A stretch of DNA of 64,000 nucleotides from Caulobacter rhizosphaerae (GTDB taxonomy: Bacteria > Pseudomonadota > Alphaproteobacteria > Caulobacterales > Caulobacteraceae). Shown piece by piece: positions 1-37,982 of this stretch. Where the stretch lies: NCBI RefSeq assembly GCF_010977555.1, contig NZ_CP048815.1, positions 4,270,501 through 4,334,500 on the forward strand, read 5' to 3'. A program made the position numbers and the translations under genes. The notes under the pieces were generated by a model. The model made no database searches. It worked only from the letters and a program-made list of their open reading frames with translations, and was not told where the DNA came from. How positions within the stretch are numbered: position 1 is the first letter of the stretch; the number at the start of each line of letters is the position of its first letter.

Positions 1-305
1 GCCGGGGTGGAGGCCCTGACGAAACGCGCCGCCCACGGGCCCCAGGCGGCGATGTCGGCCAGGCGAAAATCCAGGGGGCCGCCCAGCGGGAACAGCCGCC
101 CGAACGCCGAGGTCAGGGCGGCGGGCGACGCCAGGGGCTCGACCTGCTCCACCGCGATATGGCCGGCGTTGCCATAGGAGGCCGGGCGGGACGGGCCTTG
201 CGGATCGAGCGCCAGCACCGTCTCGCCGGCCCGGCGTAGGGCCAAGGCGCAGGCCTTGCCGACCACGCCGCCGCCAATCACCAATGTTCCGGCCGCCTGT
301 CCCAC
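1..305 (-). CDS. FAD-dependent D-amino-acid (cis-4-hydroxy-D-proline) dehydrogenase, N-terminal part
   Basis: The gene runs off the left edge; only about 101 N-terminal codons are visible. The start is a GTG at 305-303, preceded by an AGAGG ribosome site; no ATG is available in frame. The protein begins VGQAAGTLVIGGGVVGKA, so the GGGVVG dinucleotide-binding motif for FAD sits right at the N terminus, followed by a YGNAGHIAVEQVEP segment typical of DadA-like D-amino-acid dehydrogenases. Next to a hydroxyproline epimerase and the matching deaminase, the likely substrate is cis-4-hydroxy-D-proline, which it would oxidise to pyrroline-4-hydroxy-2-carboxylate. It is divergent from the deaminase gene and shares its promoter region. 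The family is clear; the substrate comes from context. Confidence 0.85.
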   Translation of the reverse strand, partial: MGQAAGTLVIGGGVVGKACALALRRAGETVLALDPQGPSRPASYGNAGHIAVEQVEPLASPAALTSAFGRLFPLGGPLDFRLADIAAWGPWAARFVRASTP

Positions 306-331
306 CTGGGCTTTACCTCTGCATCGCCATT

Positions 332-348
332 TCGTATACCGTAGACGA
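332..348. promoter_or_regulatory. Palindromic operator between the two divergent hydroxyproline genes
   Basis: A 17-bp near-perfect palindrome, TCGTATACCGTAGACGA, in which only the matched positions 5 and 13 and the centre break symmetry. It contains the TCGTATAC core that recurs upstream of the GntR gene, the GH127 operon and, as TCGTATAA or TTGTATAA, of three more genes here. It lies in the 65-bp gap between two divergent starts. A binding site for the nearby GntR/FCD regulator is inferred. Confidence 0.65.
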
Positions 349-370
349 AGCAGTTAGAGGTGCAAGCCGT

Positions 371-1285
371 ATGAGCTCCATGAATTGGTCGGGCGTGTTC
401 CCGGCCGCCACGACCCAGTTCAAGACCGACCTGTCGATCGACATCGACGCCAGCCAGCAGGTGCTCGACGCCCTGGTCCGCGACGGCGTGCACGGCCTGG
501 TGGTCCTGGGCACCTGCGGCGAGAACAATTCGCTCGAAGCCGACGAGAAGCGCCAGGTGCTGCAGGCCGCCGTCGAGGTGGTGGCCGGCCGGGTCCCGAT
601 CATCGTCGGCGTCTCGGAACTGACGACCGCGCGCGCCGCCGCCTTCGCCAAGGACGCCCAATCGCTGGGCGCCGATGCGCTGATGGTCCTGCCCGCCATG
701 GTCTATGTCCCCACCGAGGCCGAACTCGAGGCCCACTTCCGCACCGTCGCCCAGGCCTCCGCCCTGCCGATCATGCTCTACAACAATCCGCCCGCCTATC
801 GCGCCGCGATCACCCTGGACGTGCTGGCCGGCCTGGCCAGCGAGCCGACCATCGTGGCCGTCAAGGAAAGCGCGCCCGACACCCGCCGCTTCACCGACCT
901 GGCGCGCGCCTTCGGCGACCGCTTCATCTTGATGGCCGGCCTCGACGACGTCGCCCTGGAAGGCCTGCTGATGGGCGCCCGCGGCTGGGTCTCGGGCCTG
1001 ACCAGCGCCTTCCCGCAGGAATCGGTGGCCCTGGTCGCCGCCGTCGATCGCGGCGACCTGGAAGAAGCCCGTCGCATCTATCGCTGGTTCATGCCGCTGC
1101 TGCACCTGGACGCCGAACACGACCTGGTGCAGTCGATCAAGCTGGCCGAGCAGATCATGGGCCGTGGATCTGAGCGGGTCCGCATGCCTCGCCTGCCCCT
1201 GGCCGGCGCCCGTCGCGCCCAGGTGATCGCCATGGTCGAGGAGGCCGCCGCCAGCCGGCCGCTCCTGACCCAGGCGGCCGCCTAG
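371..1285 (+). CDS. lhpC: Dihydrodipicolinate synthase family; probable pyrroline-4-hydroxy-2-carboxylate deaminase
   Basis: A 304-residue class I aldolase-fold enzyme of the DapA/NAL family. Visible landmarks are GTCGEN near residue 47, MLYNNPPAYR with the catalytic Tyr region, and the Schiff-base lysine in IVAVKES (Lys165). In hydroxyproline degradation the member of this family deaminates 1-pyrroline-4-hydroxy-2-carboxylate to 2-oxoglutarate semialdehyde. Family alone does not separate this from other keto-acid lyases, but the epimerase 32 bp downstream and the divergent D-amino-acid dehydrogenase do. I chose ATG 371, with AGAGG 10 nt upstream, over the longer frame from 284, which would run through the operator. 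The next gene has its own AAGAGGAAG site, so the two probably form an operon. Confidence 0.88.
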   Translation: MSSMNWSGVFPAATTQFKTDLSIDIDASQQVLDALVRDGVHGLVVLGTCGENNSLEADEKRQVLQAAVEVVAGRVPIIVGVSELTTARAAAFAKDAQSLGADALMVLPAMVYVPTEAELEAHFRTVAQASALPIMLYNNPPAYRAAITLDVLAGLASEPTIVAVKESAPDTRRFTDLARAFGDRFILMAGLDDVALEGLLMGARGWVSGLTSAFPQESVALVAAVDRGDLEEARRIYRWFMPLLHLDAEHDLVQSIKLAEQIMGRGSERVRMPRLPLAGARRAQVIAMVEEAAASRPLLTQAAA

Positions 1286-1317
1286 GCCCTTCAAAGTCGA
1301 AGCGTAAGAGGAAGTCC

Positions 1318-2316
1318 ATGCGTCACACGTTCTTCTGCATCGACGGCCACACGGCGGGCAATCCGGTCCGCCTGGCGGCCGGCGGCGCCCCGCTGTTGCG
1401 GGGCGACACGATGAGCGCGCGGCGGCAGGACTTCCTCGCCCGCTTCGACTGGATCCGCACCGGCCTGATGTTCGAGCCGCGCGGCCACGACATGATGTCG
1501 GGCGGCTTCCTCTATCCGCCGACCCAGCCCGACTGCGACGCCGGCATCCTGTTCATCGAGACCAGCGGCTGCCTGCCGATGTGCGGCCACGGCACGATCG
1601 GCATCGTCACCTTCGCCCTCGAGAACGGCCTGATCACCCCGCGCGAGCCGGGTAAGCTGCGGCTGGAGGTGCCGGCCGGCGTCATCGACATCGCCTACGA
1701 GACGGCGGGCGACAGGGTCACGGCGGTGAAGATCCGCAACGTCCCGGCCTATCTGGCCGAGGAAGGGGTAGCGATCGACGTGCCGGGCTTCGGCCCGCTG
1801 ACCATAGACGTGGCCTATGGCGGCAACTTCTACGCCATCATCGAACCGCAGGGCGCCTATACGGGCATCGACGCCCTGGGCGCGGCCGAGATCCTGCGCC
1901 TCAGCCCGATCGTCCGGACCCTGGTCCGCGACAAGGTCGAGCCGGTCCATCCGCTGGACCCGACCATCCGCGGCGTCAGCCACGTGCTGTGGGCCGACGC
2001 GCCCCGGGCCCCGGACGCCGACGGCCGCAACGCGGTGTTCTACGGCGACCGGGCCATCGACCGCAGCCCCTGCGGCACCGGCACCTCGGCCCGACTGGCC
2101 CACCTGGCGGCCAAGGGGCGGCTGAAGGTCGGCGACGCCTTCGTGCACGAGAGCATCATCGGCAGCCGCTTCATCGGCCGGGTCGAGGAACGGGTGGAAC
2201 TGGGCGGGCGGGACGCGATCATTCCGTCGATCCAGGGATCAGCCATCGCCACCGGCCACAACATCCTCTGGATCGACCGCGCCGACCCGTTCTGGGCGGG
2301 CTTCCAGGTGATCTAG
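1318..2316 (+). CDS. lhpA: 4-hydroxyproline 2-epimerase (proline racemase family)
   Basis: 332 residues. Both catalytic cysteines of the two-base epimerases are present: Cys89 in MCGHGTIG and Cys252 in DRSPCGTGTSARLA. A Thr in place of the second Cys would mark trans-3-hydroxyproline dehydratase, so this copy should be a true epimerase, interconverting trans-4-hydroxy-L-proline and cis-4-hydroxy-D-proline. It is the first committed step feeding the dehydrogenase at the left edge and the deaminase just upstream. Proline racemase is a less likely alternative in this neighbourhood. The protein is cytoplasmic, with no signal peptide. Confidence 0.92.
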   Translation: MRHTFFCIDGHTAGNPVRLAAGGAPLLRGDTMSARRQDFLARFDWIRTGLMFEPRGHDMMSGGFLYPPTQPDCDAGILFIETSGCLPMCGHGTIGIVTFALENGLITPREPGKLRLEVPAGVIDIAYETAGDRVTAVKIRNVPAYLAEEGVAIDVPGFGPLTIDVAYGGNFYAIIEPQGAYTGIDALGAAEILRLSPIVRTLVRDKVEPVHPLDPTIRGVSHVLWADAPRAPDADGRNAVFYGDRAIDRSPCGTGTSARLAHLAAKGRLKVGDAFVHESIIGSRFIGRVEERVELGGRDAIIPSIQGSAIATGHNILWIDRADPFWAGFQVI

Positions 2317-2336
2317 ACTCCCGCCGACCCGCCGCG

Positions 2337-2352
2337 TCTAGTATACGATAGG
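2337..2352. promoter_or_regulatory. Operator-like site upstream of the GntR gene
   Basis: TCTAGTATACGATAG lies about 50 bp before the regulator start. Read on the minus strand it is CTATCGTATACTAGA, the same ATCGTATAC core found in front of the GH127 operon. This suggests autoregulation of the GntR gene and is inferred from motif recurrence only. Confidence 0.55.
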
Positions 2353-2398
2353 GCTCACACCGCACGGGGGCGGTCGCCAAGAGGTTCAGCCTGCGCCA

Positions 2399-3040
2399 AT
2401 GAACATCGTCGTCCGCACGCTGTCCGACCAGACCTATGAGATCGTCCGCCGCCGCATCCTGGTCGGGGCGATGCAGCCCGGAACCGCCGTACGCCAGGAC
2501 GTCATCGCCGCGGAGCTGGGCGTCAGCAAGATCCCGCTGCGCGAGGCCCTGGGCCGCCTGGAGCAGGACGGCCTGCTCAGCTCCTATCCCAATCGCGGCT
2601 ATGTCGTCCGCGACCTGTCGACCGACGAGGCCAGCGAGGTCTTCGCCCTGCGCCTGAAGCTCGAGCCCGGCGCGGTCGCCGAGGCTTGCCTGCGCGCCAC
2701 CCCGGCCGACCACGTCGCCGCCGAGAAGGCGCTCTCGGCGCTCGAAGCCGAGCTGGCCAAGCCCGACGGCGACCATGTCAGCTTCAACCGCGCCTTCCAC
2801 CTGGCGCTGGTGCGCCCCGGGGGCCACATCACCTTCCAGCTGATGGAGCGGCTGCAGATCCTGGCCGAGCGCTATGTGCGGGTGCACCTGGAGCCCCTGG
2901 GCCGCGACGAGCGGGCCAGCCAGGAGCATCGCGAGATCCTGGCCGCCTGGATCCAAGGCGACGCGGCGACCGTCGAATCCCTGACGGTCAACCACATCCT
3001 CGGCACGCTGTCGGACCTCAAGCAGCAACTGTCGGCCTGA
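2399..3040 (+). CDS. GntR-family transcriptional regulator, FCD subgroup
   Basis: 213 residues. An N-terminal winged helix (about residues 8-75) contains VRQDVIAAELGVSKIPLREALGRL and the wing YPNRGYVV. The C-terminal helical FCD ligand domain starts near ALRLKLEPGAVAEACL and has the usual Asp/His-rich metal-site region (SFNRAFHLALV). FCD regulators commonly sense small carboxylates or amino acids and are often repressors released by the pathway substrate. It lies 82 bp after the epimerase, with its own operator-like site. It is the best candidate to bind the TCGTATA motifs across the first 27 kb and so to tie hydroxyproline catabolism to the glycosidase and receptor genes. Confidence 0.9.
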   Translation: MNIVVRTLSDQTYEIVRRRILVGAMQPGTAVRQDVIAAELGVSKIPLREALGRLEQDGLLSSYPNRGYVVRDLSTDEASEVFALRLKLEPGAVAEACLRATPADHVAAEKALSALEAELAKPDGDHVSFNRAFHLALVRPGGHITFQLMERLQILAERYVRVHLEPLGRDERASQEHREILAAWIQGDAATVESLTVNHILGTLSDLKQQLSA

Positions 3041-3498
3041 CGACCCGCAAATCGCTGATTTCGGACGGTGACCCGATGATTTTCGGGGCGTCGACGCGGG
3101 CCGTCCTTCCGGTGCGGATCTCAAGGAGCGTCGCGCCGCGTAAATTGTCCGAGTTATCATGCAGATAACGTCGATCTCTTTTTGGGGGCGAGCGCAAGGA
3201 AAGGCATTTTTCTTCCGCCTCTGATCGGATTTAGTCGCGCTGAAACCTCCTCAGAAATGACACCTTCCAGCTGAGCCGGGGCGTTCGGTGCCCCTCGCGC
3301 GCGCTCCAGAATCCACGGAAAACTTTATAAAAACAATCTATTGACCGGACGCTGGTTGGCGGCCCGGATTTGCGGCAGGACCGGAACGCGATGCGGCATT
3401 TGTCAGATCGTCGAATGTATATTGTATAATTTTTTTGACGCGGCCTCGCGGATATGTCCAATTTGCGACCTGGTAATTGTCAGGGGAGAGGACAGTCC
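3041..3498. other. Intergenic region, 458 bp
   Basis: No convincing gene. The stretch after 3390 is unusually AT-rich for this genome and holds the operator and -35 region of the downstream receptor. Short ORFs here lack ribosome sites and recognisable sequence. Confidence 0.6.
3414..3440 (+). promoter_or_regulatory. Operator plus -35 box for the first TonB-dependent receptor
   Basis: ATGTATATTGTATAA (3415-3429) is followed after exactly 5 nt by TTGACG (3435-3440), the -35 hexamer of Caulobacter housekeeping promoters. The same block with the same 5-nt gap occurs at 14814-14840 and, on the minus strand, at 27277-27303. TATAAT inside the motif could alternatively be a -10 box, but no well-spaced -35 precedes it. 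Confidence 0.6.
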
Positions 3499-6204
3499 AT
3501 GAGCAGCAGGCACGCCATGATGGCGGCGACGGCCCTAATTGCGATCACTCTGTGTTCGCCGGCCGTCGCACAGGACATCAAGTCGACCGACGCGCAGGCC
3601 AACGCCACCGCCGCCGACGACGCCAAGACCGACGATGCGACCCTGGTCGACACCGTCATCGTCAAGGGCATCCGGGGCAGCCTGGACGCGGCGACCAAGC
3701 GAAAGAAGAACTCGGCCCAGATCGTCGAATCCATCGAGTCCGAGGACGTGGGCAAGCTGCCCGACAACAACGTTCCCGAAGCCCTGTCGCGTGTCACCGG
3801 CGTCCAGATCGAGCGCATCCACGGCGAAGGCACGAACATCACCATCCGCGGGATGCAGGGCGTCTCGACGACCATCAACGGCAACGACAACAGCGTCGGC
3901 GACAGCCGCTCCGCCAACCTGGCCGACATCCCCGCCGAACTGCTGAAGTCCGTCCAGGTCTACAAGACGCGCACGGCCGACCAGGTCGAAGGCGGCATCG
4001 CCGGCACGGTCAATGTCGAGCTGCGCCGCCCGCTGGACCTGAGGAACGGCCTGACGGTCGCCGGCAGCATCAAGAACGTCTACGGCAGCACCGGCGACAC
4101 CAAGAGCCCCTATGCCAGCCTGCTGGTCGGCGACCGGTTCGACACCGGGATCGGCGAGATGGGCTTCCTGATCAACGGCTCCTACACCAAGAACAACTAC
4201 GAGGAAGACTTCGTCGAGAGCGAGTCCCCCAATACGTTCTTCGACAACACCCCTTCGCAAGCCTCGCTGCCCGCCAACCAGAAGAACATCATCGCGCCCT
4301 ACGCGGTGAACTACGGCGTCGAGCAAGGCGCGATCACTCGGCCCTCCATCAACCTGGTGGGCCAATGGCGCGCCAACGAGCATCTCGATTTCGTGGTCGA
4401 AGGGTCCTATTTCGGCAGCAAGGAAAAGCGCGGGCGCGACCGCCTGCACGTCACCACCCGCGACCCCAACAGCGCGGTCTCGAACGTGGTCCTGGCCGAG
4501 GACGGCCGCACCGTGCGGTCCCTGACCCTCAGTCGTCCAGAGGGCGTCGACGCCAGCGCCCAGTCCTATTACGAGAAGGTCGACTCCGACAACTTCACGA
4601 CCAACGCCGAGGCGCACTGGCGCGGCGACCGCCTGCAGGTCGACGGCTCGGCCCAATATAACTGGAGCAAGACCAGCTATTACGGCGTCCTGAGCCTGGC
4701 GCACCTGCTGGACGCGAGCGGCAAGCCCGCCGCCACGGTCAATGTGGACTTCAACTCCAGCAACATCCCGGGGCGCGGCCCCTACATCACCTTCCCGACC
4801 AGCGACCTGGCGAAGGTCGAAAACTACCAGATCTTCCAGCTTCACGACGAACAGGCCATCGCCAAGAACCACGAATTCGTGCTCAAGGCCGACGCCACCT
4901 ACCGCCTCAGCGACGACAAGTTCTTCCGCAGCATCGGCTTCGGCGTTCGCTATTCCGACCGTCACCTGACCCGCGACTACGGCTATCGCGACGCCTTCCC
5001 GACGATCGCCCTGAACAGTTTCCCGGGCGGCGTCGGCGTGACGACCAGTCAGTTGGCCGTCACCGGCTTCTCCCCCACCTGGTACCATCTGTCGGGCCCC
5101 GACCTGATGGACAGGCACGACGCCCTGCTCACCGCCGCCGGCTGGACGACGGAACGGCCGCCCAACGATCTTGGTCAGACCTATGTCGAGGACGAACAGA
5201 GCCTGGCCGGCTACGGCAACCTGAACTACGCGATCAAGAGCCGCTTCCCGATCGACGGCGTGGCCGGCGTGCGCGTGGTCCGGACCAAGGGCCACAACGT
5301 CAGCACCCGGTTCGATCTGGACAAGGACTGGAACGCGGTCATCACCCCGACCGAAGGCGGCGGCGACTATGTCGACGTGTTGCCCAGCCTCAACGCCGTG
5401 GTCCACTTCTCGTCGAAGTTCCAGTTGCGCCTAGCCTACACCTACAACGTCCAGCGTCCCAACTTCCTGGACATGTCGTCCTGGCGGACGATCCAGGCCA
5501 ACAATCAGATCATCTATTCCGGCAACCCGGACCTGAAGCCCAATCGCTCCGAGAACTACGACGCGTCGCTGGAATACTACTTCGGGCGCGGCGGCATCGT
5601 CTCGCTGGGCGCGTTCCTTAAGAAGCCCGACGGCTATATCTACTACAGCGGCGGTGGCCAGGAGACGATCAATGGCGTCGTGTACCAGGTCTACACCAGC
5701 CGCAACGCCGGACCTGGCGAGTTCCAGGGCTACGAGTTCAACACCTCGGGCTTCTTCGACTTCCTGCCCGGCAAGCTGCACAACTTCGGCGCCAGCGCCA
5801 ACTTCACCTACATGGCGAAGTACAACATCAACTTCCCGTTCGAGGGCGACCAGCGCCTGATCCCGGGCGTGTTCGACGCCGACAGCACCTCGAAGTACAC
5901 CTACAATCTGGCGCTCTACTACGACACCCCGCAGTTCAGCGCGCGCGTCGCCTATAACTACCGCGCCCGCTACAAGGTGAATGTCTACCAGGATAACCCC
6001 GAATACTCGCCCTACAACGACGCCACCTCGCGGCTCGACGCGGCGGTGAACTGGACGCCGATCAAGCAGCTGACCCTCAGCGTCGAGGGCACCAACCTGA
6101 CCAAGGAAAACAACAACGTCTACTGGGGGCAGGACCGCATGCTGCCGCTGGGCGTTCGCGTCCAGGCCCGCACCCTGCAGGTCAGCGCCCGCTTCCGCTA
6201 CTGA
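3499..6204 (+). CDS. TonB-dependent receptor 1
   Basis: 901 residues. I chose ATG 3499, preceded by GGGGAGAGGAC, over the 15-codon longer frame because it gives a clean signal peptide (MAATALIAITLCSPAVAQ). The plug domain begins about residue 55 (VIVKGIRGSLDAATKRKKNS, then PEALSRVTGVQIER and ITIRGMQGVSTTING). The 22-strand barrel follows and ends in the C-terminal aromatic signature VSARFRY. It imports large ligands across the outer membrane, powered by TonB-ExbBD. The plug start resembles the carbohydrate receptors abundant in Caulobacter and Xanthomonas. Its promoter carries the motif shared with the peptidase/transporter operon, so the ligand is probably a glycopeptide or oligosaccharide from the same substrate. 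Confidence 0.93.
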   Translation: MSSRHAMMAATALIAITLCSPAVAQDIKSTDAQANATAADDAKTDDATLVDTVIVKGIRGSLDAATKRKKNSAQIVESIESEDVGKLPDNNVPEALSRVTGVQIERIHGEGTNITIRGMQGVSTTINGNDNSVGDSRSANLADIPAELLKSVQVYKTRTADQVEGGIAGTVNVELRRPLDLRNGLTVAGSIKNVYGSTGDTKSPYASLLVGDRFDTGIGEMGFLINGSYTKNNYEEDFVESESPNTFFDNTPSQASLPANQKNIIAPYAVNYGVEQGAITRPSINLVGQWRANEHLDFVVEGSYFGSKEKRGRDRLHVTTRDPNSAVSNVVLAEDGRTVRSLTLSRPEGVDASAQSYYEKVDSDNFTTNAEAHWRGDRLQVDGSAQYNWSKTSYYGVLSLAHLLDASGKPAATVNVDFNSSNIPGRGPYITFPTSDLAKVENYQIFQLHDEQAIAKNHEFVLKADATYRLSDDKFFRSIGFGVRYSDRHLTRDYGYRDAFPTIALNSFPGGVGVTTSQLAVTGFSPTWYHLSGPDLMDRHDALLTAAGWTTERPPNDLGQTYVEDEQSLAGYGNLNYAIKSRFPIDGVAGVRVVRTKGHNVSTRFDLDKDWNAVITPTEGGGDYVDVLPSLNAVVHFSSKFQLRLAYTYNVQRPNFLDMSSWRTIQANNQIIYSGNPDLKPNRSENYDASLEYYFGRGGIVSLGAFLKKPDGYIYYSGGGQETINGVVYQVYTSRNAGPGEFQGYEFNTSGFFDFLPGKLHNFGASANFTYMAKYNINFPFEGDQRLIPGVFDADSTSKYTYNLALYYDTPQFSARVAYNYRARYKVNVYQDNPEYSPYNDATSRLDAAVNWTPIKQLTLSVEGTNLTKENNNVYWGQDRMLPLGVRVQARTLQVSARFRY

Positions 6205-6251
6205 TCCCTTTCACCGCATCGCCGCCTCAGGGCGGCGCCCCTCCCCCCCTT

Positions 6252-6353: not shown

Positions 6354-7871
6354 TCAGCCCTGCCCGCCGGTCACCCGCAGCATGACGACCCCATGGGCGG
6401 GGACCTGGAAGTCCTGCGATCCAACCGGCAGGTCGGCGCCGCGCCAGAGGTCCCTCACGGCGGTCAGCCCGCTCTTCCCCGCGTCGCTGGGCAGCAGCGT
6501 CATCGTCGCCGCCGCCTCGCCCCGGTTGAACAGGGCCACCGCCACCGCGCCGTCGGCCAGCGGCTTGGTCCAGACCTCGGTCGTCCCGTCGCGCCGAACC
6601 GCCTTGCCCTGGACGCCCAGGGCGTCCTGGTCCACGGCGATCACCTCGCGGTTCTCGAGCATCTTCAGCACCTCGGGGCTGCTCTGGCGCAGGTCGTGCC
6701 CCATCATCAGCGGCGCGGCCGACATCGCCCACAGGGTCATGTGGGTGGCGTACTCGTCATGGCTCATGCCGCCGTTGCCGATCTCCAGCATGTCCGGATC
6801 GTTCCAGCCGCCGGGGCCGGCGTGCTCGGCGCGGCCGTTCTTGTCGAAGCCGATCCTGGCCATGGTCGCATAGTCGTCGGTGATGTCGCCGGTCGTGCGC
6901 CACAGGTGGCCGCCGACCTTGCGCCCCCACGCCCCGACCTCGAAGCGGCCGTACTCGCACAGCGAATAGACGATCGGCCGCCCGGTCGCCCGCAACGCCG
7001 CGCCCATCTCGTAATAGGTGCGCTGGACCTTGTCGGCGTCGTCATAGAACCATTCGCCCGAACACAGGTCGTACTTCAGATAGTCGACGCCCCAGTCGGC
7101 GAAGGTCTTGGCGTCCTGCTGGACGTGGCCGTAGCTGCCCTCATAGCCCGCACAGGTCCTGGGCCCCGGCGCGCTGTAGAGACCGAACTTCAGCCCGCGG
7201 GCGTGGACGTAGTCGGCCAGGCCCTTCATGTCCGGGAACTTCTCGTTCGGCCGGATCGCGCCGTCCGGCCCGCGGGTCCCCTGCCAGCCGTCGTCGATGT
7301 TGACATAGACGTAGCCGGCGTCGCGCAGGCCGGTGGCGACCAGGGCGTCGGCCATGGCGCGCACGGTCTTGTCGTCGATCTTCTCGGCGAACTTGTTCCA
7401 GCTGCTCCAGCCCATCGGCGGCGTCCGCGCCAGGCCGTCGGGCGCCAGGGTTCCCAGCGGCGGCAAGGCGGTGGTCCTGAAGGCGCGAGCGCGGGCGTCC
7501 TTGGCGGTCCCGTGGCGGCCGGACTGCTCGACATGGGCGTACCAGATGTCGCCCGACAGCTTCAGGGTCTGGCCGTTCAGCACCGCCGTCCATTGCCGGG
7601 TGGCGTGGTCCTTGTCGTTGAGATTGCGCAGCTCGAAGGTCGCCTTGCCGCCCTGGACCACGAGGTTGCGCATCTCCATCGGGCCGTACCAAGCCGTGGT
7701 GACGACGCCGCGGGGCTTGCCGCCCTCGCTGGACAGCTGGACCATGGTCACGCCCGGATAGGACGGCGCGTCGTCGAACAGCCAGACGCCGTCCAGCGGC
7801 GTCGCCGCCCGCGCCGTCCCGGCGGCCAGGATCGTGATCCCCAGTGAAAGCGTCATCAGGCCGCGAAGCAT
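6354..7871 (-). CDS. GH27 glycosidase: alpha-galactosidase or beta-L-arabinopyranosidase
   Basis: 505 residues with a signal peptide (MLRGLMTLSLGITILAAGTARA). Residues 25-140 form an extra N-terminal beta-rich domain I do not recognise. The GH27 barrel starts at ARTPPMGWSSWN. The nucleophile Asp is in DYLKYDLC and the acid/base Asp in GGWNDPDMLEIG; a C-terminal beta-sandwich follows. GH27 contains alpha-galactosidases and also beta-L-arabinopyranosidases acting on arabinogalactans; the sequence does not tell me which. In this operon it could remove alpha-galactose from extensin serines or terminal L-arabinopyranose from arabinogalactan proteins. It is last in the minus-strand operon, 54 bp after GH43, with a GGAGA ribosome site. 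Confidence 0.9.
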   Translation of the reverse strand: MLRGLMTLSLGITILAAGTARAATPLDGVWLFDDAPSYPGVTMVQLSSEGGKPRGVVTTAWYGPMEMRNLVVQGGKATFELRNLNDKDHATRQWTAVLNGQTLKLSGDIWYAHVEQSGRHGTAKDARARAFRTTALPPLGTLAPDGLARTPPMGWSSWNKFAEKIDDKTVRAMADALVATGLRDAGYVYVNIDDGWQGTRGPDGAIRPNEKFPDMKGLADYVHARGLKFGLYSAPGPRTCAGYEGSYGHVQQDAKTFADWGVDYLKYDLCSGEWFYDDADKVQRTYYEMGAALRATGRPIVYSLCEYGRFEVGAWGRKVGGHLWRTTGDITDDYATMARIGFDKNGRAEHAGPGGWNDPDMLEIGNGGMSHDEYATHMTLWAMSAAPLMMGHDLRQSSPEVLKMLENREVIAVDQDALGVQGKAVRRDGTTEVWTKPLADGAVAVALFNRGEAAATMTLLPSDAGKSGLTAVRDLWRGADLPVGSQDFQVPAHGVVMLRVTGGQG

Positions 7872-11277: not shown

Positions 11278-11279
11278 CT

Positions 11280-14686: not shown

Positions 14687-14702
14687 TGCTCTTCCCCCAT
14701 AT

Positions 14703-14746
14703 TTGATACCGTATACGATCTTAGGGTCACGTCGCTCGCTCGTCAA
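14703..14746 (-). promoter_or_regulatory. Promoter and operator for the GH127 operon
   Basis: On the minus strand TTGACG (14746-14741) is followed by ATCGTATACGGTATCAA (14721-14705). Here the operator lies downstream of the -35, over the expected -10/start region and 19 nt before the start codon: the geometry of a repressor site. TCGTATAC is shared with sites 332-348 and 2337-2352. Confidence 0.6.
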
Positions 14747-14813
14747 TCTGGCGTATGGCGCCGCTGGCCGGGACACGTCTGGTCACGCTCTTGCCAGGGA
14801 GCATATTCGTCTG

Positions 14814-14840
14814 ACTATATATCGTATAATCTTCTTGACG
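14814..14840 (+). promoter_or_regulatory. Operator plus -35 box for the peptidase/transporter operon
   Basis: CTATATATCGTATAA (up to 14829), 5 nt, then TTGACG (14835-14840). Arrangement and spacing are identical to the site before receptor 1 and to the minus-strand site before receptor 2. It is divergent from the GH127 promoter, about 100 bp away. Confidence 0.6.
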
Positions 14841-14888
14841 CTGCGAGGGTGAACCGGTTTGTGCGAAGTCGGAATGGGGAGGCGCGGC

Positions 14889-27276: not shown

Positions 27277-27303
27277 TGTCAAATATCTTATACGATATAC
27301 ATA
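27277..27303 (-). promoter_or_regulatory. Operator plus -35 box for receptor 2
   Basis: On the minus strand ATGTATATCGTATAA is followed after 5 nt by TTGACA (27282-27277). The AT-rich stretch continues with TAATATTAT, a possible -10 region. Spacing and sequence match the sites before receptor 1 and the S9 peptidase. Confidence 0.62.
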
Positions 27304-28225: not shown

Positions 28226-28230
28226 CCCCG

Positions 28231-31455
<3,225 letters not shown>

Positions 31456-31519
31456 TCATGGGGCGCCCCGCCCCGGCTGTCAGTCAAAACTCAGGTGAAA
31501 CTTCAGGCGAAACTCTGGA

Positions 31520-33055
31520 TCAAACCGCCACCGGCGCGCCGGCCTGGCCATGGGCGCGGATGAAGTCGGCCTGGGCGGGCATCCGCCGGACGGCCTGGGC
31601 CGTCGCTTCGGCGATCCGCGCCAGCCGCGCTTCGACCTGGTCGAGCGGCAGGCCCTCGGCCAGCGGCTCGACGCCCTCGACCTCAGGCCCCTGTCCGTCC
31701 AGCACCGCCAGCCAGCTGGTCTTGGTGAAGAGCTCGTCGCTCTCGCGGAACACCCGGCCCGTCGCGCGATAGATGCGCAGCCGCTCGAGCAGGCTGTCGG
31801 GAACGGACATCCCGGCCAGCTGCTCCCAGTAGGGCGTGTCGCGTCGTTCGGTGGCGTGGAAGTGCAGGATCAGGAAGTCGCGCACGCTGTTAAACTCGGT
31901 CGCCATCAGCCGGTTGTAGCGGCGGGCGTCGGCGGGTTCGAAGGCGCGGGTCGGCAGCATTTCCAGCAGCCGGGCGATGCCGACCTGGATCAGGTGGATG
32001 CTGGTGGATTCCAGCGGCTCCAGAAAGCCGCTGGCCAGGCCCAGGGCCACGACGTTCTTGACCCAGCCGGCCGGACGGCGGCCGGCCTGGAAGCGCAGAA
32101 CCCGGGGCTCGGCCAGGGGCTCGCCGTCGAGATGGGCCAGCAGGGTGGCGGTCGCCTCGTCCTCGGAGACATGGCGGCTGGAAAAGACATAGCCGTTGCC
32201 GGTGCGGTGCTGCAGCGGAATGCGCCACTGCCAGCCGGCCTCGCGGGCGGTCGAGCGGGTGTAAGGGGCCGGGGGGCCAGCGTTGGCGGACGGAACGGCC
32301 ACGGCCCGGTCGTTGGGCAGCCAGCGCGCCCAGTCCTCGAACGGGCTCTCCAGCGCCTGGCCGATCAGCAGGGCGCGGAATCCCGTGCAATCCAGGAACA
32401 GGTCGGCGGCGATCCGCTCGCCGTCCTCCATCGTCACCGACTCGACGAAGCCGTCGCCGCTTCGCAGGTTGACGGCGGCCACCTTGCCTTCGCGGCGGAC
32501 GACCCCGGCCGCCTCGGCGTGGGCGCGCAGCAGCTTGGCGTAGAGGGCCGCGTCGAAATGGAAGGCGTAGGCCAGTTGCGACAGGGGGCCGGCGCCCGGC
32601 TGGGGACGAGCGAAGCGCCCGGCCGCTGCAGCCTGGGCGCAGATCGAATAGGTCTCCAGCGGCTGGCCCAGGCCAACCTGGCGCAGCCTTCGCCAGGCGC
32701 CTTCGAACGGCGTGGGACCGAAGTCGGGGCCATAGACTCCGAACGGGTGGAAATAGCGGTGGCCGCGCTGGCGCCAGTCGACGAACTCGATGCCCAGCTT
32801 GAACGTGCCCTTGGTCTCGCGGACGAAGACGTCCTCGTCCAGACCGATCATGGCGTTGAAGGCGCGGATGGGCGGGATGGTCGCCTCGCCGACCCCGACG
32901 ATGCCGATCTCCTCGGATTCGATCAGGATGATCGCCGGGCCTCGAGGGCCGAGCACGCGCGCCAAGGCCGCGGCGGCCATCCAGCCGGCGGCGCCGCCCC
33001 CGATGATGGCGATGCGGGTCAGTGGCCCGCCGTCCCGCGAAGTTTCGGTCAGCAT
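31520..33055 (-). CDS. Flavin-dependent tryptophan-halogenase-like protein
   Basis: 511 residues. The FAD motif IAIIGGGAAGWMAA lies near the N terminus, followed by IGIVGVGEATIPPIRAFN, TFKLGIEFVDW with the lysine conserved in halogenases, the cofactor-stabilising AGWQWRIPL, and GFLEPLESTSIHLIQVGIARLL. Those are the hallmarks of the family that makes hypohalous acid from reduced flavin and oxygen. ATG 33055 is chosen because the upstream frame passes through a terminator. The family often sits next to TonB receptors in Caulobacter, Xanthomonas and Sphingomonas without any halogenated product known, so the true reaction is uncertain. It is flanked by a receptor and a beta-galactosidase. Confidence 0.9.
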   Translation of the reverse strand: MLTETSRDGGPLTRIAIIGGGAAGWMAAAALARVLGPRGPAIILIESEEIGIVGVGEATIPPIRAFNAMIGLDEDVFVRETKGTFKLGIEFVDWRQRGHRYFHPFGVYGPDFGPTPFEGAWRRLRQVGLGQPLETYSICAQAAAAGRFARPQPGAGPLSQLAYAFHFDAALYAKLLRAHAEAAGVVRREGKVAAVNLRSGDGFVESVTMEDGERIAADLFLDCTGFRALLIGQALESPFEDWARWLPNDRAVAVPSANAGPPAPYTRSTAREAGWQWRIPLQHRTGNGYVFSSRHVSEDEATATLLAHLDGEPLAEPRVLRFQAGRRPAGWVKNVVALGLASGFLEPLESTSIHLIQVGIARLLEMLPTRAFEPADARRYNRLMATEFNSVRDFLILHFHATERRDTPYWEQLAGMSVPDSLLERLRIYRATGRVFRESDELFTKTSWLAVLDGQGPEVEGVEPLAEGLPLDQVEARLARIAEATAQAVRRMPAQADFIRAHGQAGAPVAV

Positions 33056-33102
33056 CGGATCGATCGAACCATGTCTTGCGTGCGGACCGAAGGTGTTTGT
33101 CG

Positions 33103-33142
33103 AAAAAAGCGCCGACGTGGCGCGCCGAGGCGCCACGTCGGC
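33103..33142 (-). terminator. Strong terminator between receptor 3 and the halogenase-like gene
   Basis: A 12-bp perfect stem GCCGACGTGGCG / CGCCACGTCGGC with an 8-nt loop, followed on the minus strand by six T residues. It begins 12 bp after the receptor stop. The next genes on the same strand continue 47 bp beyond. Confidence 0.92.
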
Positions 33143-33154
33143 TAGCTGGGGAGG

Positions 33155-35965
33155 TTAGTAGGTGATGCGCAGGGCGACGCCGAAGCGGCGGTCGTTGAGC
33201 TGGTACTGCAGCGGCGCGGCGGGCGTGCCGATGTAGAGCACGTTCATGCGGTTGTTCAGGTTCACCGCATCCACCGAGAACGCCACGTGGTCGTTGATGT
33301 CGACGCTGAGCGACGCATCCAGCGAGGCGTAGGGCTTGGCGTATTGCGGAATGCCGTTGGCCCCGCTGCCGGTGGTCTGGTCCAGATAGGCCGAACGCCA
33401 GTTGTAGGCGACCCGGGCGCTGACCGGCCCCTTCTCGTAGAGCCCGATCAGGTTGTAGCTGTTCTTGGACAGCTTCTCGAGCGGCAGCTGGGCCGGCGCC
33501 GCCGAACCCGCCGTGGCGAAGGGGTTGCTGACGCTGCTGTCGACATAGGTGTAGTTGGCCTGGACGCCCAGGCCGCTGAGCAGGCCCGGCAGGAAGTCGA
33601 AGAACTGCTGGTAGCCGAGCTCGACGCCCTTGACGGTGCCCTTGCCCGAATTGACCACCGTGCTGACGTCGTAGGTCACCCCGTTATAGGAGCCCAGCAC
33701 CGTGCCGCCAGCCAGGAAGCCGTCGACCTTCTTGTAGAAGACGCCGGCGGTCAGCGAGCCGGTGTCGTTGAAGTACCACTCCGCCGTCAGGTCATAGTTG
33801 TCGGACTCGATCGGACGCAGCATCGGGTTGCCCGAACTGGCGCTGGGGTGGCCGGTGACCGGATTGACCTGGTTGGGGTTGTTGAGCGTCAGGTTGGTCG
33901 ACAGCTGGTCGAAGTTGGGACGCGCCAGGCCCTTGGAATAGGCCAGGCGGGCCTGGAGCGTGTCGGTCAGCTTGGCGCGCAGGTTGAAGCTGGGCAGAAC
34001 GCGCGTGTAGCTGTTGTCGACATCGATCGCGGTGGTGGTGCCATCGTTGTTGAACTGGGTGCCCGTCGAGGTCGCCTCGGTCTTGATCACTCGCACGCCG
34101 AGACCGCCGTCGATCTGCACGCCGGCCACCTCGCCGGCGTAGTCGGCGATCGCCCAGCCGGTATAGGTCTTCTCGGTCTGGCTGTTGAGGTCGCCAGGCG
34201 TGAAGGCGTCCTTGGTCTGGGCGCCGAACAGGGCGTAGAGCGCCTTGGTCTGGGCCCAGACGCCGTCACCCTGCGGGAAGGCCGGATAGAGCAGGCCGCC
34301 CTTGACGGTGTTGCCGTCGAACCAGCGCATCGACGGACCCGGCATCGACAGTTGCGGGTGGGCCGAAAGCGGCACCAGCGGCGTGCCGGCCGGCGCCGAA
34401 CAGTTGGCGTCGGGGCCCAGGGCGGTGATGCAGACCCCGTGCCAGGTTCCCCGCAGGTCGATGCTGTTGTCGGAATAGCGGGCGCCGCCGCGCAGCTTGT
34501 CGAAGAAGCCGCCTTCCAGGTCGTACTCGACGTCGGTCGCGAACGACAGGGTGTCGGCGTCGTTGCGCTGCAGGGAGTCGGCCATGTACGGCGTGGTGTA
34601 GTTGGCCGGGTTGTTCAGGACCGAGGCGTCACGCACCTCCCACCGCGGATACTTGCCGGTCAGGTCGAAGTCGACGATCGACTTGTGGGGCGCGGTCAGC
34701 CCGGTCTGGCCCGACTGGGAGTACAGCGACAGCACGTGGCCGTTGCGGTCGGCGTTGTAGTAGGACTTCAGGTACTGGACGTCGAAATTGGCCTTCAGGC
34801 GGTCGGTCGGGGTCCAGGCCGCGTTCAGCGTGAAGTTCTGGCTCTGGCTCCACAGCTGCTGGTCGTAGCGCCCGGTCTCGAAGGTCTGGTTCTGCAGCGA
34901 GCCCTTGGTGGCGTAGCCTTCGTCATTGAACGTGAAGGCCGCGCCCGGCAGCGGATCGGTGCCGTAGCTGGTGACGTTCCCGTTCGCGTCCCGGACGTTG
35001 GAGCGGTTGTTGAAGTCGTAATAGTAGGCGCCGGTCCGGTTGAACCAGTACTTGGTCCGCTGGTACTGGGCGGTCAGCAGCAGGTCGTCGCTGGGCCGCC
35101 ACTGCACCGCCGCGGCGATGCCCAGGCGCTTGCGGTCGCCGGTGTCGTCATAGATCTCGAAGCCGTAGGGCACCTGGGCGTTCGCCGGGCCATTGGCGAT
35201 CGAACCGGGCGCCACCGTGTCGAAGGGCCCGGCCAGCAGGCCGTCCTGGCGATAGCGGCTCTTGCTCAGCACCGCGTTGAGCAGCACGCCGACCTCGCCG
35301 ATCGAGGTGTCGAAGCGGTCGCTGTAGAGGCCCGAGATCGAGCCGCCGTTCTTGCGCACCCGATCGTAGTAGTTGCCGCGGAACGTGGCGCTGAGGACGC
35401 GATCGGGCGAGTCGAACGGCTTGCGGGTGCGCAGGTTCACCGCGCCGCCGACGCCGCCTTCGATGATGTTGGCGGGGGCGTTCTTGTAGACGTCGGCGCC
35501 GGCCAGCAGTTCGGGCGGCACGCCTTCCAGATCGAAGGCCCGGCCGCCGGACGCCGAATAGACCGCGCGCCCGTCGAGGAAGTTCTGCACCTGGGTCAGG
35601 CCGCGGATGGCGATCGCCGGCTGGGTGCGGTGGTCGAAGTCGGTGGCGCCCTCGCCATAGCGGCGCTGGATCTGGACGCCGGTCACCCGTTGCAGGGCCT
35701 CGGTGGTGTTGGCGTCGGGCAGCTTGCCGATGTCCTGGGCCTGGATCGAATCGACGACCTGGTCGGCGTTGCGCTTGATCGCCTGGGCCGAACGCAGGCT
35801 CGCGCGGACCCCGGTGACGACGATTTCGGAAACGGCGGCCGTGTCGGACGGCGCCTGGGCCGTGGACCCGCCGGCCGCCTGGGCCGTGGCCGAGCCGGCG
35901 GCCGCGCACACCCCGAGGGCCGCCACGGACGCGCTCACCATCAACCGGAACTGAATACCCCTCAT
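33155..35965 (-). CDS. TonB-dependent receptor 3
   Basis: 936 residues; ATG 35965 with a strong AGGAGG site. The signal peptide is MVSASVAALGVCAAAGSATAQ. The plug has IVVTGVRASLRSAQAIKRNADQ, PDANTTEALQRVTGVQIQR and VYKNAPANIIEGGVGGAVNLRT, the IPR010104-type carbohydrate receptor pattern of Caulobacter and Xanthomonas. The barrel ends LNDRRFGVALRITY. It is the first gene of a unit with the halogenase-like and GH2 genes, although a terminator follows it, and is divergent from the GH30 gene. A galactose-containing oligosaccharide is the likely ligand, from context. Confidence 0.94.
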   Translation of the reverse strand: MRGIQFRLMVSASVAALGVCAAAGSATAQAAGGSTAQAPSDTAAVSEIVVTGVRASLRSAQAIKRNADQVVDSIQAQDIGKLPDANTTEALQRVTGVQIQRRYGEGATDFDHRTQPAIAIRGLTQVQNFLDGRAVYSASGGRAFDLEGVPPELLAGADVYKNAPANIIEGGVGGAVNLRTRKPFDSPDRVLSATFRGNYYDRVRKNGGSISGLYSDRFDTSIGEVGVLLNAVLSKSRYRQDGLLAGPFDTVAPGSIANGPANAQVPYGFEIYDDTGDRKRLGIAAAVQWRPSDDLLLTAQYQRTKYWFNRTGAYYYDFNNRSNVRDANGNVTSYGTDPLPGAAFTFNDEGYATKGSLQNQTFETGRYDQQLWSQSQNFTLNAAWTPTDRLKANFDVQYLKSYYNADRNGHVLSLYSQSGQTGLTAPHKSIVDFDLTGKYPRWEVRDASVLNNPANYTTPYMADSLQRNDADTLSFATDVEYDLEGGFFDKLRGGARYSDNSIDLRGTWHGVCITALGPDANCSAPAGTPLVPLSAHPQLSMPGPSMRWFDGNTVKGGLLYPAFPQGDGVWAQTKALYALFGAQTKDAFTPGDLNSQTEKTYTGWAIADYAGEVAGVQIDGGLGVRVIKTEATSTGTQFNNDGTTTAIDVDNSYTRVLPSFNLRAKLTDTLQARLAYSKGLARPNFDQLSTNLTLNNPNQVNPVTGHPSASSGNPMLRPIESDNYDLTAEWYFNDTGSLTAGVFYKKVDGFLAGGTVLGSYNGVTYDVSTVVNSGKGTVKGVELGYQQFFDFLPGLLSGLGVQANYTYVDSSVSNPFATAGSAAPAQLPLEKLSKNSYNLIGLYEKGPVSARVAYNWRSAYLDQTTGSGANGIPQYAKPYASLDASLSVDINDHVAFSVDAVNLNNRMNVLYIGTPAAPLQYQLNDRRFGVALRITY

Positions 35966-36518
35966 CTCGTTTTTCCTCCTGCTCTCACCTTGTCACGCTC
36001 TCGTACGGCGCGACTTCATGTCAGACATATGCTGCTACCATTTGTACTACAAGTACGATTTTAAGCGGTCAGGCCACTAAATGACGCCCGCCTCGGCGTG
36101 AGCGTCCGTGGGAGGCCCGTGAGAGAAATGAACCGCGCTCCGGACCGGGCTGGCGAACACGGGAGTCGAAGCTCAGCCGTGGCCGAACGGCCGATGCCTC
36201 GCCGCCGCATTCTCCGAGCGGGATGGATGGAGTTTGCGAAATACTCAAGCTTAACAATGAAAACCGGGGCCCTCGACGAAGGCCTCATCCCGGAAGTCGC
36301 GACGAAACCGCTCGTGAGGCGAAGCTCCGTTGACGCTCGCCGTCCCAGCCGCGCTGCGCTTGGGAACGCTCCTGGAGGTGTCCAGACCAGTTCCGGCTCA
36401 GCGGGCGGGAGAACCGCCTGATCTTCACGCCGCAGCCTCTCGACGCCGGTTTGCTTGATGGAATGTATCAATTATTCTACAAAACTAGACGTAGTATGGT
36501 CGGACTTTTGGGGGCCTC
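35966..36518. other. Divergent promoter region, 553 bp
   Basis: Separates receptor 3 from the GH30 gene. It holds a 13-bp palindrome near the receptor and AT-rich DNA just before GH30 (ATGTATCAATTATTCTAC at 36464-36481), a weak relative of the TCGTATA sites. The middle (36060-36430) has short open frames in several registers but nothing I recognise. Confidence 0.55.
36044..36056. promoter_or_regulatory. Palindromic operator candidate upstream of receptor 3
   Basis: GTACT-ACA-AGTAC is a perfect inverted repeat about 80 bp before the receptor start. It differs from the TCGTATA family, so a different regulator is likely. Confidence 0.5.
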
Positions 36519-37982
36519 ATGATGTTGTCGCGACGTGGAGCCCTGGGCCTGCTGGCGGGACTGGCGGCGGCCCCTCGAGCCCTCGCCGCGCCGCCGGCTC
36601 CGGCGGTGAGCGTCACCCTGCGTCCGGCTCTGGAGCGCGCCGGCCCGGCCTTCGAAGGCTGGGGCACGGCCCTGGCCTGGTTCGCCAATGTCACCGGAGG
36701 CTGGCCCGAGGCGGAACGCCGGCGGCTGGCCGACCTGTTCTATGGTCCGGGCGGCCTGGGCTGGACGATCGGGCGCTACAATATCGGCGGCGGCGCCAGG
36801 CCCGGCGATCCGCCCCACCTGCGGACCGGCGCGGCGGTTCCGGGCTTCTGGCGCCGGCCGGCCGGGACCGCCGGCCAGGACTGGTGGCGTCCCGAGGACG
36901 AGTCGATGTGGGACTGGTCGGCCGACGCCAACCAGCGCTGGTGGCTCGACGCGATCAAGGCCAGGGTCGACCAGCCGATCCTGGAGGCCTTCTCCAACTC
37001 GCCGCCCTGGTTCATGACCGTCAGCGGCAAGGTGTCGGGGGCCGTGAAAGGCACGGACGACAATCTGCGCCCCGGCCTGGAGCCGCTGTTCGCCGCCTAT
37101 CTGGCCCGCGTCGTCGACGAGCTGCAGCGGCGCCACGGGATCGCCTTCCGGACCCTGTCGCCGGTCAACGAGCCCAACACCGACTACTGGTTCGCCGCCA
37201 ACACCCAGGAGGGCGCCCACTGGTCCCCCGCTCGCCAGGCCGCCATGATCGTGGCGTCGGCCGATGCCCTCCGGGCCCGGGGGCTGAAGACGGTGATCAG
37301 CGCGCCCGACGAAACCAACTCGCACCTGTTCCTGGCCGACTGGGAGGCCTATCCGGACGCGGCGCGCGCGGCGATCGGCCAGCTGAACGTGCACAGCTAC
37401 GGCGTCGTCAACCAAACCGGCGTGCGCGACGTGGCCCGCGCCTCGGGGATTCGGCTGTGGATGTCGGAGAACGACACGCCGCTGGACAAGGACCCCGAGA
37501 GCCTGGACGGCATGAACTCGCCGCTGGCCTTCGCCGAACACGTGGTCATGGACCTCAAGCGGCTGGAGCCGGCGGCCTGGGTGTTCTGGCAGGCGGTCGA
37601 GGACCTGAGCACGCGCGAGGGCAAGCCCGGTTCGAACTGGGGCCTGGTCAAGGCCGACCTGCGCGGCCCTCCCGAGGGTCCGCACGCGATCCATGTCACG
37701 GCCAAGTACCACGCCATGGCGCACTTCAGCCGCTACATCCGGCCCGGCTATCGGCTGACGCCCGTCGACGACCTGGACACGGTCGGCGCCCTGTCTCCCG
37801 ACGGGGCCGAGCTGGTCCTGGTGCATGTCAACGGCGGGATCATGCCGCGCGACCTGGTCACGCCCCTGACGGGCTGGTCGAGCCGGATGGTGGTCACCGA
37901 CGCCACGCGCCGACTGGAGCCGATCGCCGGAACCGTCGCCCCGCCCCGCTCGATCGTCACCCTGGTCCTTCGACGCGGCTAG
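36519..37982 (+). CDS. GH30-family glycosidase, endo-beta-1,6-galactanase-like
   Basis: 487 residues. It starts MMLSRRGALGLLAGLAAAPRALA, a twin-arginine-type signal; ATG 36519 has GGGGG upstream and ATG 36522 is an equal option. The (beta/alpha)8 barrel shows FEGWGTALAWF, WTIGRYNIGGG, acid/base Glu218 in LSPVNEPNTDYW and nucleophile Glu317 in LWMSENDTP, with the short C-terminal beta domain typical of the family. The GWGTSLAWW-like opening and YNIGGG motif resemble the bacterial/fungal endo-beta-1,6-galactanase subfamily, whose substrate is the side chain of type II arabinogalactan on arabinogalactan proteins. Glucosylceramidase-type or xylanase-type GH30 are less likely. Confidence 0.88.
   Translation: MMLSRRGALGLLAGLAAAPRALAAPPAPAVSVTLRPALERAGPAFEGWGTALAWFANVTGGWPEAERRRLADLFYGPGGLGWTIGRYNIGGGARPGDPPHLRTGAAVPGFWRRPAGTAGQDWWRPEDESMWDWSADANQRWWLDAIKARVDQPILEAFSNSPPWFMTVSGKVSGAVKGTDDNLRPGLEPLFAAYLARVVDELQRRHGIAFRTLSPVNEPNTDYWFAANTQEGAHWSPARQAAMIVASADALRARGLKTVISAPDETNSHLFLADWEAYPDAARAAIGQLNVHSYGVVNQTGVRDVARASGIRLWMSENDTPLDKDPESLDGMNSPLAFAEHVVMDLKRLEPAAWVFWQAVEDLSTREGKPGSNWGLVKADLRGPPEGPHAIHVTAKYHAMAHFSRYIRPGYRLTPVDDLDTVGALSPDGAELVLVHVNGGIMPRDLVTPLTGWSSRMVVTDATRRLEPIAGTVAPPRSIVTLVLRRG

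Follow-up and report, generated by a model that had tools for sequence, protein, structure and literature searches.

The 64,000-nucleotide stretch of Caulobacter rhizosphaerae DNA considered here (called the window; positions 4270501-4334500 of contig 1, in a genome of 5.96 Mb, with Caulobacter as the nearest named matches) carries near its left end a locus in which genes for hydroxyproline catabolism stand next to genes for glycosidases, peptidases and transporters. Genes were called from codon-position GC content and Pfam/NCBIfam scans, for 20 proteins in the window and eight in its left flank. The locus, together with the sites of a palindrome, TATACNGTATA, counted at one mismatch, was laid out as follows:

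L004:11304-12833, left of the window, after the M24 prolidase gene: amino-acid permease
L004:12823-14031, left of the window, next after the DAO gene: M24 prolidase
1-305, minus strand: 5' part of a DAO-family (DadA-like) oxidoreductase gene, candidate cis-4-hydroxy-D-proline dehydrogenase; rest outside the window (L004:14028-15305)
284-1285, plus strand: DHDPS-family enzyme, candidate pyrroline-4-hydroxy-2-carboxylate deaminase by its position beside the epimerase
335-345: palindrome between the DAO and DHDPS operons (1 mismatch)
1318-2316, plus strand: 4-hydroxyproline 2-epimerase (NCBIfam PRK13971)
2399-3040, plus strand: GntR/FCD regulator (Pfam/NCBIfam), by adjacency the candidate owner of the palindrome
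3418-3428: palindrome, 26 bp before TBDR1
3454-6204, plus strand: TonB-dependent receptor TBDR1 (TonB-Xanth-Caul model)
6354-7871, minus strand: GH27, alpha-galactosidase-like, signal-peptide-like N-terminus
7926-9500, minus strand: GH43 with a C-terminal discoidin-like domain (weak Pfam match), signal-peptide-like N-terminus
9490-11277, minus strand: DUF885 putative zinc peptidase, HESAPGH motif, signal-peptide-like N-terminus
11280-12317, minus strand: Ldh_2 (MLD2) oxidoreductase, no signal peptide seen
12314-14776, minus strand: GH146-type beta-L-arabinofuranosidase candidate (PF07944)
14705-14715: palindrome in the GH146 promoter
14818-14828: palindrome in the S9/DUF5695/POT promoter
14859-17264, plus strand: S9 peptidase of dipeptidyl peptidase IV (DPP-IV) type, candidate X-Pro/X-Hyp dipeptidyl peptidase (Hyp, hydroxyproline)
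17275-20043, plus strand: DUF5695 protein, beta-sandwich plus alpha/alpha toroid, predicted fold like PL27 lyase
20095-21996, plus strand: POT-family di/tripeptide:H+ symporter
22191-23267, plus strand: ISAs1 transposase, between POT and TBDR2
24258-27200, minus strand: TonB-dependent receptor TBDR2 (nearest models BtuB, below cut-off)
27289-27299: palindrome, 89 bp before TBDR2

Read from left to right, the DHDPS, epimerase, GntR/FCD and TBDR1 genes (Pfam/NCBIfam) are followed by a minus-strand set reading leftward (GH146-Ldh_2-DUF885-GH43-GH27), a divergent set reading rightward (S9-DUF5695-POT), the ISAs1 transposase (without a match in the stretch examined in relative G026) and TBDR2. The likely start of the DHDPS gene lies near 371, downstream of the operator-like palindrome, and that of the GH146 gene near 14686, with a twin-arginine-like signal. 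A preliminary description made from the sequence had nearly every item of this inventory right, as judged by Pfam/NCBIfam scans and translations; its DadA-like gene is present, with only the first ~305 bases inside the window and the remainder beyond the left edge, and the Ldh_2, DUF5695, GntR/FCD and ISAs1 genes went unmentioned in it. For the SusC/SusD pair of a Bacteroidota-type polysaccharide utilisation locus, no SusD Pfam match was obtained among the 20 window proteins.

Conservation of this arrangement was followed in 80 loci gathered by GH146 similarity alone (the best 80 of 458, all at least 66% identical), whose titles include Caulobacter, Sphingomonas, Novosphingobium, Sphingobium, Sphingopyxis, Croceibacterium, Stakelama and Acidobacteria. 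Within 10 kb of GH146 in these best 80 of 458 loci, ten of which were shortened by contig ends, the neighbours were DUF885 (69), Ldh_2 (64), DUF5695 (62), DHDPS (50), S9 (40), GH43 (39), the epimerase (36), GntR (31), DAO (27), M24 (26), the permease (24), TBDR1 (22), TBDR2 (21), GH27 (10) and POT (10). These counts include distant relatives, identity being at least 60% in 27 of 40 cases for S9, at least 75% in 5 of 10 for POT and at least 70% in 5 of 22 for TBDR1. The GH146, Ldh_2 and DUF885 genes were consecutive in 60/80 loci, and the hydroxyproline genes lay mostly on one side of GH146, in either orientation (other side in 5/51 loci; both sides in L094). The conserved arrangement occurs in Caulobacter and sphingomonads, several with strain names that point to leaves or roots as their origin.

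Whole-genome searches covered 50 of the 80 genomes. Every one of these, all with a GH146 orthologue, contained a relative of the epimerase (46 at 75-98% identity, four Acidobacteria at 37-39%), present as a single family copy in 49/50 and located within 30 kb of the GH146 orthologue in 41/50. As an internal control, GH146 paralogues (38-52% identity, E<=1e-100) were within 30 kb of the epimerase in 0/27 genomes (41/50 versus 0/27: Fisher 2e-13, kinship ignored). The synteny search proposed in the preliminary description, for the glycosidase gene beside a hydroxyproline epimerase elsewhere, returned the pair at no more than 30 kb in most genomes covered, and a chance neighbourhood is rejected on this linkage together with the shared palindrome. 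Among 61 relatives, a GH146 orthologue (at least 59%) was found in five, each with an epimerase (5/5, one a contig-end fragment), while the other 56 yielded a full-length epimerase at 72% identity or more in five and a 39% match in a sixth; these co-occurrence counts ignore shared ancestry.

The palindrome itself came from a search of the DAO/DHDPS and GH146 promoters. It was found at nine places in the genome, five of them in the locus (binomial 2.5e-10, partly circular), and the pattern read backwards occurred five times genome-wide. With two mismatches allowed, the 64 kb window held six sites against 0.94 expected, a number reached by 0/100 shuffles. Across the 80 loci there were 140 sites, six of them inside mapped genes; by comparison, the pattern reversed gave five, and eight other palindromes, one with the core in common, gave between 1 and 32. 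Sites preceded TBDR1 in 21/21 promoters, TBDR2 in 8/11, DAO in 17/25, S9 in 27/40, GH146 in 44/80, DHDPS in 24/50 and DUF5695 in 20/62, with a background of 3.75% of random 490-bp windows; they were scarce before GntR (3/29), the epimerase (1/35) and the permease (1/23), and absent before Ldh_2 (0/64), DUF885 (0/69), GH43 (0/39), M24 (0/26), GH27 (0/10) and POT (0/10). Because the promoters of TBDR1 and TBDR2, and those of four loci without a GH146 orthologue (L120-L123, with the palindrome at DAO/DHDPS), were not used in motif discovery, they provide independent support. This distribution suggests that the operons are switched on together through a common palindrome, and adjacency points to the GntR/FCD protein as the one that binds it.

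Five relatives have a close epimerase and no GH146 orthologue. Three Caulobacter loci among them (L120-L122) keep DUF885, GntR, permease, M24, DAO and DHDPS by the epimerase, and the other two (L119, which is without the palindrome, and L123) keep DAO, M24, DHDPS and GntR; no Ldh_2, DUF5695 or window glycosidase was seen in the 13-20 kb viewed in the five. The presence of DUF885 in such peptide-only loci indicates that it goes along with the use of hydroxyproline, whereas GH146, DUF5695 and Ldh_2 appear to extend a hydroxyproline locus to glycoproteins. In the acidobacterium Granulicella paludicola (L080), a GH146 gene (71%) stands among an epimerase-family gene (35%), DAO, DHDPS (43%) and an aldehyde dehydrogenase, with a GH127-like protein, DUF885, a permease, a GntR/FCD regulator, GH43 (63%) and an S9 peptidase. 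The best model of this epimerase-family protein was another 4-hydroxyproline epimerase (PRK13970, 411 bits, below the cut-off of 442), and 2,5-dioxovalerate dehydrogenase was among the best models of the aldehyde dehydrogenase, at a score well short of its cut-off. In three other Acidobacteria an epimerase-family gene lay within 6, 18 and 21 kb of GH146. The palindrome was absent from four of five acidobacterial loci scanned, the fifth having one site, inside GH146; given this absence and the distance of the catabolic genes, the same functions seem to have been grouped in Acidobacteria under another control signal.

Assignment of the hydroxyproline pathway was firmest for the epimerase, which matched PRK13971 at 553 bits (cut-off 376), shows both Cys motifs in translation, as had been described, and is the sole Pro_racemase-family match in the genome. 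The DAO gene belongs to the DAO family, with D-amino acid dehydrogenase models scoring below cut-off, and the DHDPS-family enzyme matched PF00701 at 187 bits, with no equivalog model above cut-off. Two candidate dehydrogenases for alpha-ketoglutarate semialdehyde are encoded elsewhere in the genome, at 1.774 and 1.789 Mb. One aldehyde dehydrogenase candidate, 48% identical to that of Granulicella, lies in an arabinose locus that also holds an AraD1-family protein, an arabinonate dehydratase-like protein, a protein resembling the arabinofuranosidase ArfA and a GH43. The closest solved relative of Ldh_2 was delta1-piperideine-2-carboxylate reductase (238 bits; next 124). MLD2 proteins encoded beside proline-racemase-family genes are reported to reduce proline ketimine, and MLD2 genes to occur in hydroxyproline neighbourhoods (PMC4113996), so that salvage of pyrroline-2-carboxylate (Pyr2C) would be the obvious guess for Ldh_2; it may also have a role in sugar chemistry, since the gene goes with GH146 rather than solely with the hydroxyproline genes.

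The arabinofuranosidase candidate had been described as GH127. Its PF07944 domain (402 bits, cut-off 24.9; the Pfam model spans GH127 and GH146) and its Cys/Glu zinc-site pattern bear out the family; E379, C381, C449 and C450, in E-x-C and CC motifs, were invariant in an alignment of four sequences and are presumably equivalent to the HypBA1 residues that form a Cys3-Glu zinc site with a Cys nucleophile. Scores against solved structures were 473 bits for 5opj/6yqh, 158 for 8k7x, 82 for 4qjy (GH127) and 52 for 3wkw, where we take 5opj to be BT0349, 3wkw to be the GH127 enzyme HypBA1 and 8k7x, a beta-L-arabinofuranosidase, to be Bll3HypBA1. On the contrast between 5opj (473 bits) and 3wkw or 4qjy (52 and 82), the candidate groups by sequence with GH146, its nearest family among solved relatives, rather than with HypBA1-type GH127. 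XeHypBA1 and Bll4HypBA1, both GH146, are reported to be active on Araf-beta-Hyp (Araf, arabinofuranose), BT0349 on arabinan fragments and Bll3HypBA1 on the beta-1,3-Araf of arabinogalactan protein and arabinan (PMC10850190). Since the substrate differs inside the family, specificity is not readable from the sequence of this member; since XeHypBA1 and Bll4HypBA1 are GH146 enzymes, the reassignment would not weaken the idea of a hydroxyproline-arabinoside substrate.

The S9 peptidase was nearest to bacterial DPP-IV enzymes (5yp1 and 2ecf, presumably from Pseudoxanthomonas and Stenotrophomonas, in part after PMC5807507), and the title of a reference cited in PMC5807507 has a Stenotrophomonas DPP-IV accepting hydroxyproline. 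For GH43 the closest solved relative was Gly43N. The structure model of DUF5695 (mean predicted local distance difference test score, pLDDT, 77.5, and weak in parts of the helical domain) matched the PL27 L-rhamnose-alpha-1,4-D-glucuronate lyase BACCELL_00875 (5no8) over about 620 residues, well above all else, and the beta-sandwich and alpha/alpha barrel of 5no8 were both found in the model. By sequence no significant match was obtained: phmmer gave none at E<=1, and a profile search reached PL27 only at E 6.6, over 523-725. PL27 is reported to release rhamnose from gum arabic (PMC8377490). DUF5695 is a conserved protein of unassigned function whose model resembles PL27, which acts as a lyase on arabinogalactan proteins.

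The preliminary description had let the locus run to 37982, taking in GH30 and GH2. The block concerned contains:

28231-31443, minus strand: LacZ-type GH2
33155-35965, minus strand: TonB receptor TBDR3 (TonB-Xanth-Caul model)
36519-37982, plus strand: GH30

In the window no palindrome precedes GH2, the tryptophan halogenase, TBDR3 or GH30, and the block was not seen in the roughly 12, 14 and 18 kb that follow TBDR2 in three relatives (G026, G062 and G064). One locus (L085) has TBDR3, halogenase and GH2 relatives near GH146, and GH2 relatives were near it in 6/80 loci, once with at least 60% identity. The right end of the locus is near 27.3 kb, and membership of 28231-37982 is not supported. 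Within the block, the LacZ-type GH2, the tryptophan-halogenase-family protein and the TonB receptor (28231-35965) share one direction, and the GH30, closest to a secreted endo-beta-1,6-galactanase (24td) and with no palindrome upstream, is a possible enzyme for arabinogalactan proteins.

Hydroxyproline-rich glycoproteins are major wall proteins of plants and green algae. From the computed gene content, linkage, co-occurrence and palindrome, the locus, from ~4 kb left of the window to ~27.3 kb, probably forms one regulon for feeding on hydroxyproline-rich glycoproteins or glycopeptides that carry arabinose and come from plants or green algae; a hydroxyproline glycoprotein is the likely substrate class, with extensin, arabinogalactan protein and algal wall protein as candidates. 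Enzyme specificities, direction of transport, localisation and regulator binding are predictions in the route that we infer. Glycopeptides would enter the periplasm through the two TonB receptors, where GH146 would remove beta-L-arabinofuranose, GH43 alpha-L-arabinofuranose and GH27 alpha-galactose (or beta-L-arabinopyranose), while DUF5695 would attack another portion of the glycan. From the exposed Hyp/Pro-rich chain, DUF885 and the S9 peptidase would release di- and tripeptides, to be imported by POT and the amino-acid permease, and X-Hyp would be split by the M24 prolidase. The epimerase, DAO dehydrogenase and DHDPS-type deaminase would then convert trans-4-hydroxy-L-proline to alpha-ketoglutarate semialdehyde. 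The last step is probably taken by the aldehyde dehydrogenase encoded in the distant arabinose locus, which, going by known pathways, would make sugar and imino acid meet at one intermediate. The GntR/FCD protein probably binds the common palindrome and would be released when a hydroxyproline intermediate appears.

Linkage, co-occurrence, the palindrome and the acidobacterial parallel support the central part of the earlier proposal, a combined glycan, peptide and hydroxyproline system; its GH127 label gives way to GH146, its GH30/GH2 block is not supported as a part of the locus, and several observations weigh against the regulon as set out above. The epimerase was more than 30 kb away or on another contig in 9/50 genomes (one at 124 kb, eight on other contigs). 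The palindrome was discovered in two of the promoter classes counted, making the GH146, S9, DAO and DHDPS counts partly circular, and 36/80 GH146 and 26/50 DHDPS promoters lack it at one mismatch. In the 52 loci with both classes viewed, a site was present at GH146 in 28, at the hydroxyproline genes in 27 and at both in 17, which is no more than independence gives (Fisher 0.27), so that across loci the two kinds of site do not track each other. No aldehyde dehydrogenase was found in the locus (20 window and eight left-flank proteins scanned), and a simple hydroxyproline pathway has no need for Ldh_2. In the HypBA system, arabinobiose is removed by GH121, a beta-L-arabinobiosidase; GH121 was not found in the genome, where the model NF041578 matched only the C-terminal domain of GH43 (42 bits, cut-off 3200), so that complete breakdown of Ara3-4-Hyp is not established by these genes.

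The closest solved GH146, 5opj, is moreover one that acts on arabinan fragments, if it is BT0349 as assumed above, and Gly43N is taken to be an arabinan-specific enzyme of Cellvibrio. Both would fit a pectic arabinan locus that adjoins a hydroxyproline operon by accident, an explanation made very improbable by the linkage (41/50 versus 0/27), the common palindrome, the Granulicella parallel, the consecutive GH146-Ldh_2-DUF885 genes in 60/80 loci and the peptidases in the same operons. Somewhat less improbable, and still unlikely, is a general locus for hydroxyproline peptides, including those of collagen type, with glycosidases as an optional extra: L120-L122 retain DUF885, M24, permease, GntR, DAO, DHDPS, epimerase and palindrome without a GH146 orthologue, but Ldh_2, DUF5695 and GH146 are conserved neighbours in the GH146 loci and the palindrome precedes GH146 in 44/80. 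Arabinose is not known to occur on collagen, which also counts against such a locus.

The regulon for hydroxyproline-rich glycoproteins could also be read more narrowly, as directed at arabinogalactan protein and not extensin. DUF5695 would then remove a Rha-GlcA (rhamnose-glucuronic acid) cap as PL27 does, GH146 beta-1,3-Araf and GH27 beta-L-arabinopyranose, with the GH30/GH2 block at 28-38 kb as galactanase and beta-galactosidase. This version is doubtful, in view of the missing palindrome before GH30, GH2 and TBDR3, the failure to find the block in the stretches beside TBDR2 viewed in three relatives, the E value of 6.6 for PL27 in the profile search and the lack of any glucuronidase model above cut-off among the 20 window proteins. 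A bolder extension of the regulon reading, slightly better placed and held tentatively, has DUF5695 as a new CAZyme family, distant kin of PL27, which would remove Hyp-linked or arabinogalactan-protein glycan in place of GH121. The cluster would on this proposal be a widespread alphaproteobacterial glycoprotein-to-alpha-ketoglutarate regulon, assembled separately in Acidobacteria, in which both halves of Hyp-arabinosides, arabinose and hydroxyproline, would be channelled into alpha-ketoglutarate semialdehyde as a common intermediate.

Single parts of the locus have known counterparts. The HypBA systems of Bifidobacterium longum and Xanthomonas euvesicatoria (hypBA1, GH127/GH146; hypBA2, GH121; hypAA, GH43; PMC6085000, PMC7263609, PMC10850190) share with it a PF07944 beta-L-arabinofuranosidase and a GH43 for Hyp-linked arabinofuranosides, and in Xanthomonas the HypBA genes adjoin a gene for a putative prolyl-oligopeptidase, which is reported to have decayed into a pseudogene (PMC6085000). 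Unlike HypBA, the Caulobacter locus has no GH121 that could be found and adds two peptidase types, a peptide importer, TonB receptors, the hydroxyproline pathway and one palindrome. Operons for trans-4-hydroxyproline (4HypE-DAAO-DHDPS-ALDH, PMC4113996; HypR of Streptomyces, PMC6608401) share the epimerase, DAO, DHDPS and GntR/FCD; in contrast to the glycosidases seen here, the main text of PMC4113996 contains none of the terms glycosid, arabino and plant, and the HypR motif given in PMC6608401, CTNTGC(A/C)ATGTCAC, is unlike TATACNGTATA. For Latescibacteria, beta-L-arabinofuranosidase, GH30 and peptidases have been predicted in silico for hydroxyproline-rich glycoproteins, a use like the one proposed here, in a genome inventory whose consulted passages contain no hydroxyproline epimerase, single locus or regulon (PMC4454575). 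The parts are known, and the open-licence PMC literature searched yielded no case of their combination behind one operator. The bacterial systems in the papers cited centre on the sugars of these glycoproteins, whereas this locus would couple deglycosylation, peptide hydrolysis and hydroxyproline catabolism behind one operator. It opens the complete use of hydroxyproline-rich glycoproteins to direct testing, provides DUF5695 and DUF885 with a function that can be assayed, and may contain a sensor of glycoprotein turnover.

Several minor observations were made alongside. To the left of the locus, a 753-aa protein with a signal peptide and no Pfam match at E 0.001 (L004:6804-9065) adjoins a RhaT symporter (L004:9948-11237), and neither was beside the locus in 95 other loci; the symporter had been considered as rhamnose-uptake partner of the PL27-like enzyme and was dropped, since those 95 loci gave no match over half its length at E<=1e-20. 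A palindrome-like site in L127 (G000:4220941) lies ~270 bp from an open frame resembling a second GH27 (MGWNSWNKF). One genome (G032; L034/L035) has a diverged locus with three DUF885 genes and GH146, no match to the GH27 or GH43 of the window, two amidohydrolases weakly similar to a Caulobacter Xaa-Pro dipeptidase model, and three overlapping palindromes before a TonB receptor. Further to the right in the window (46656-47078), ARAGORN called a tRNA-Ser and a tRNA-Arg, the latter overlapping a coding-like frame at 46878-48392.

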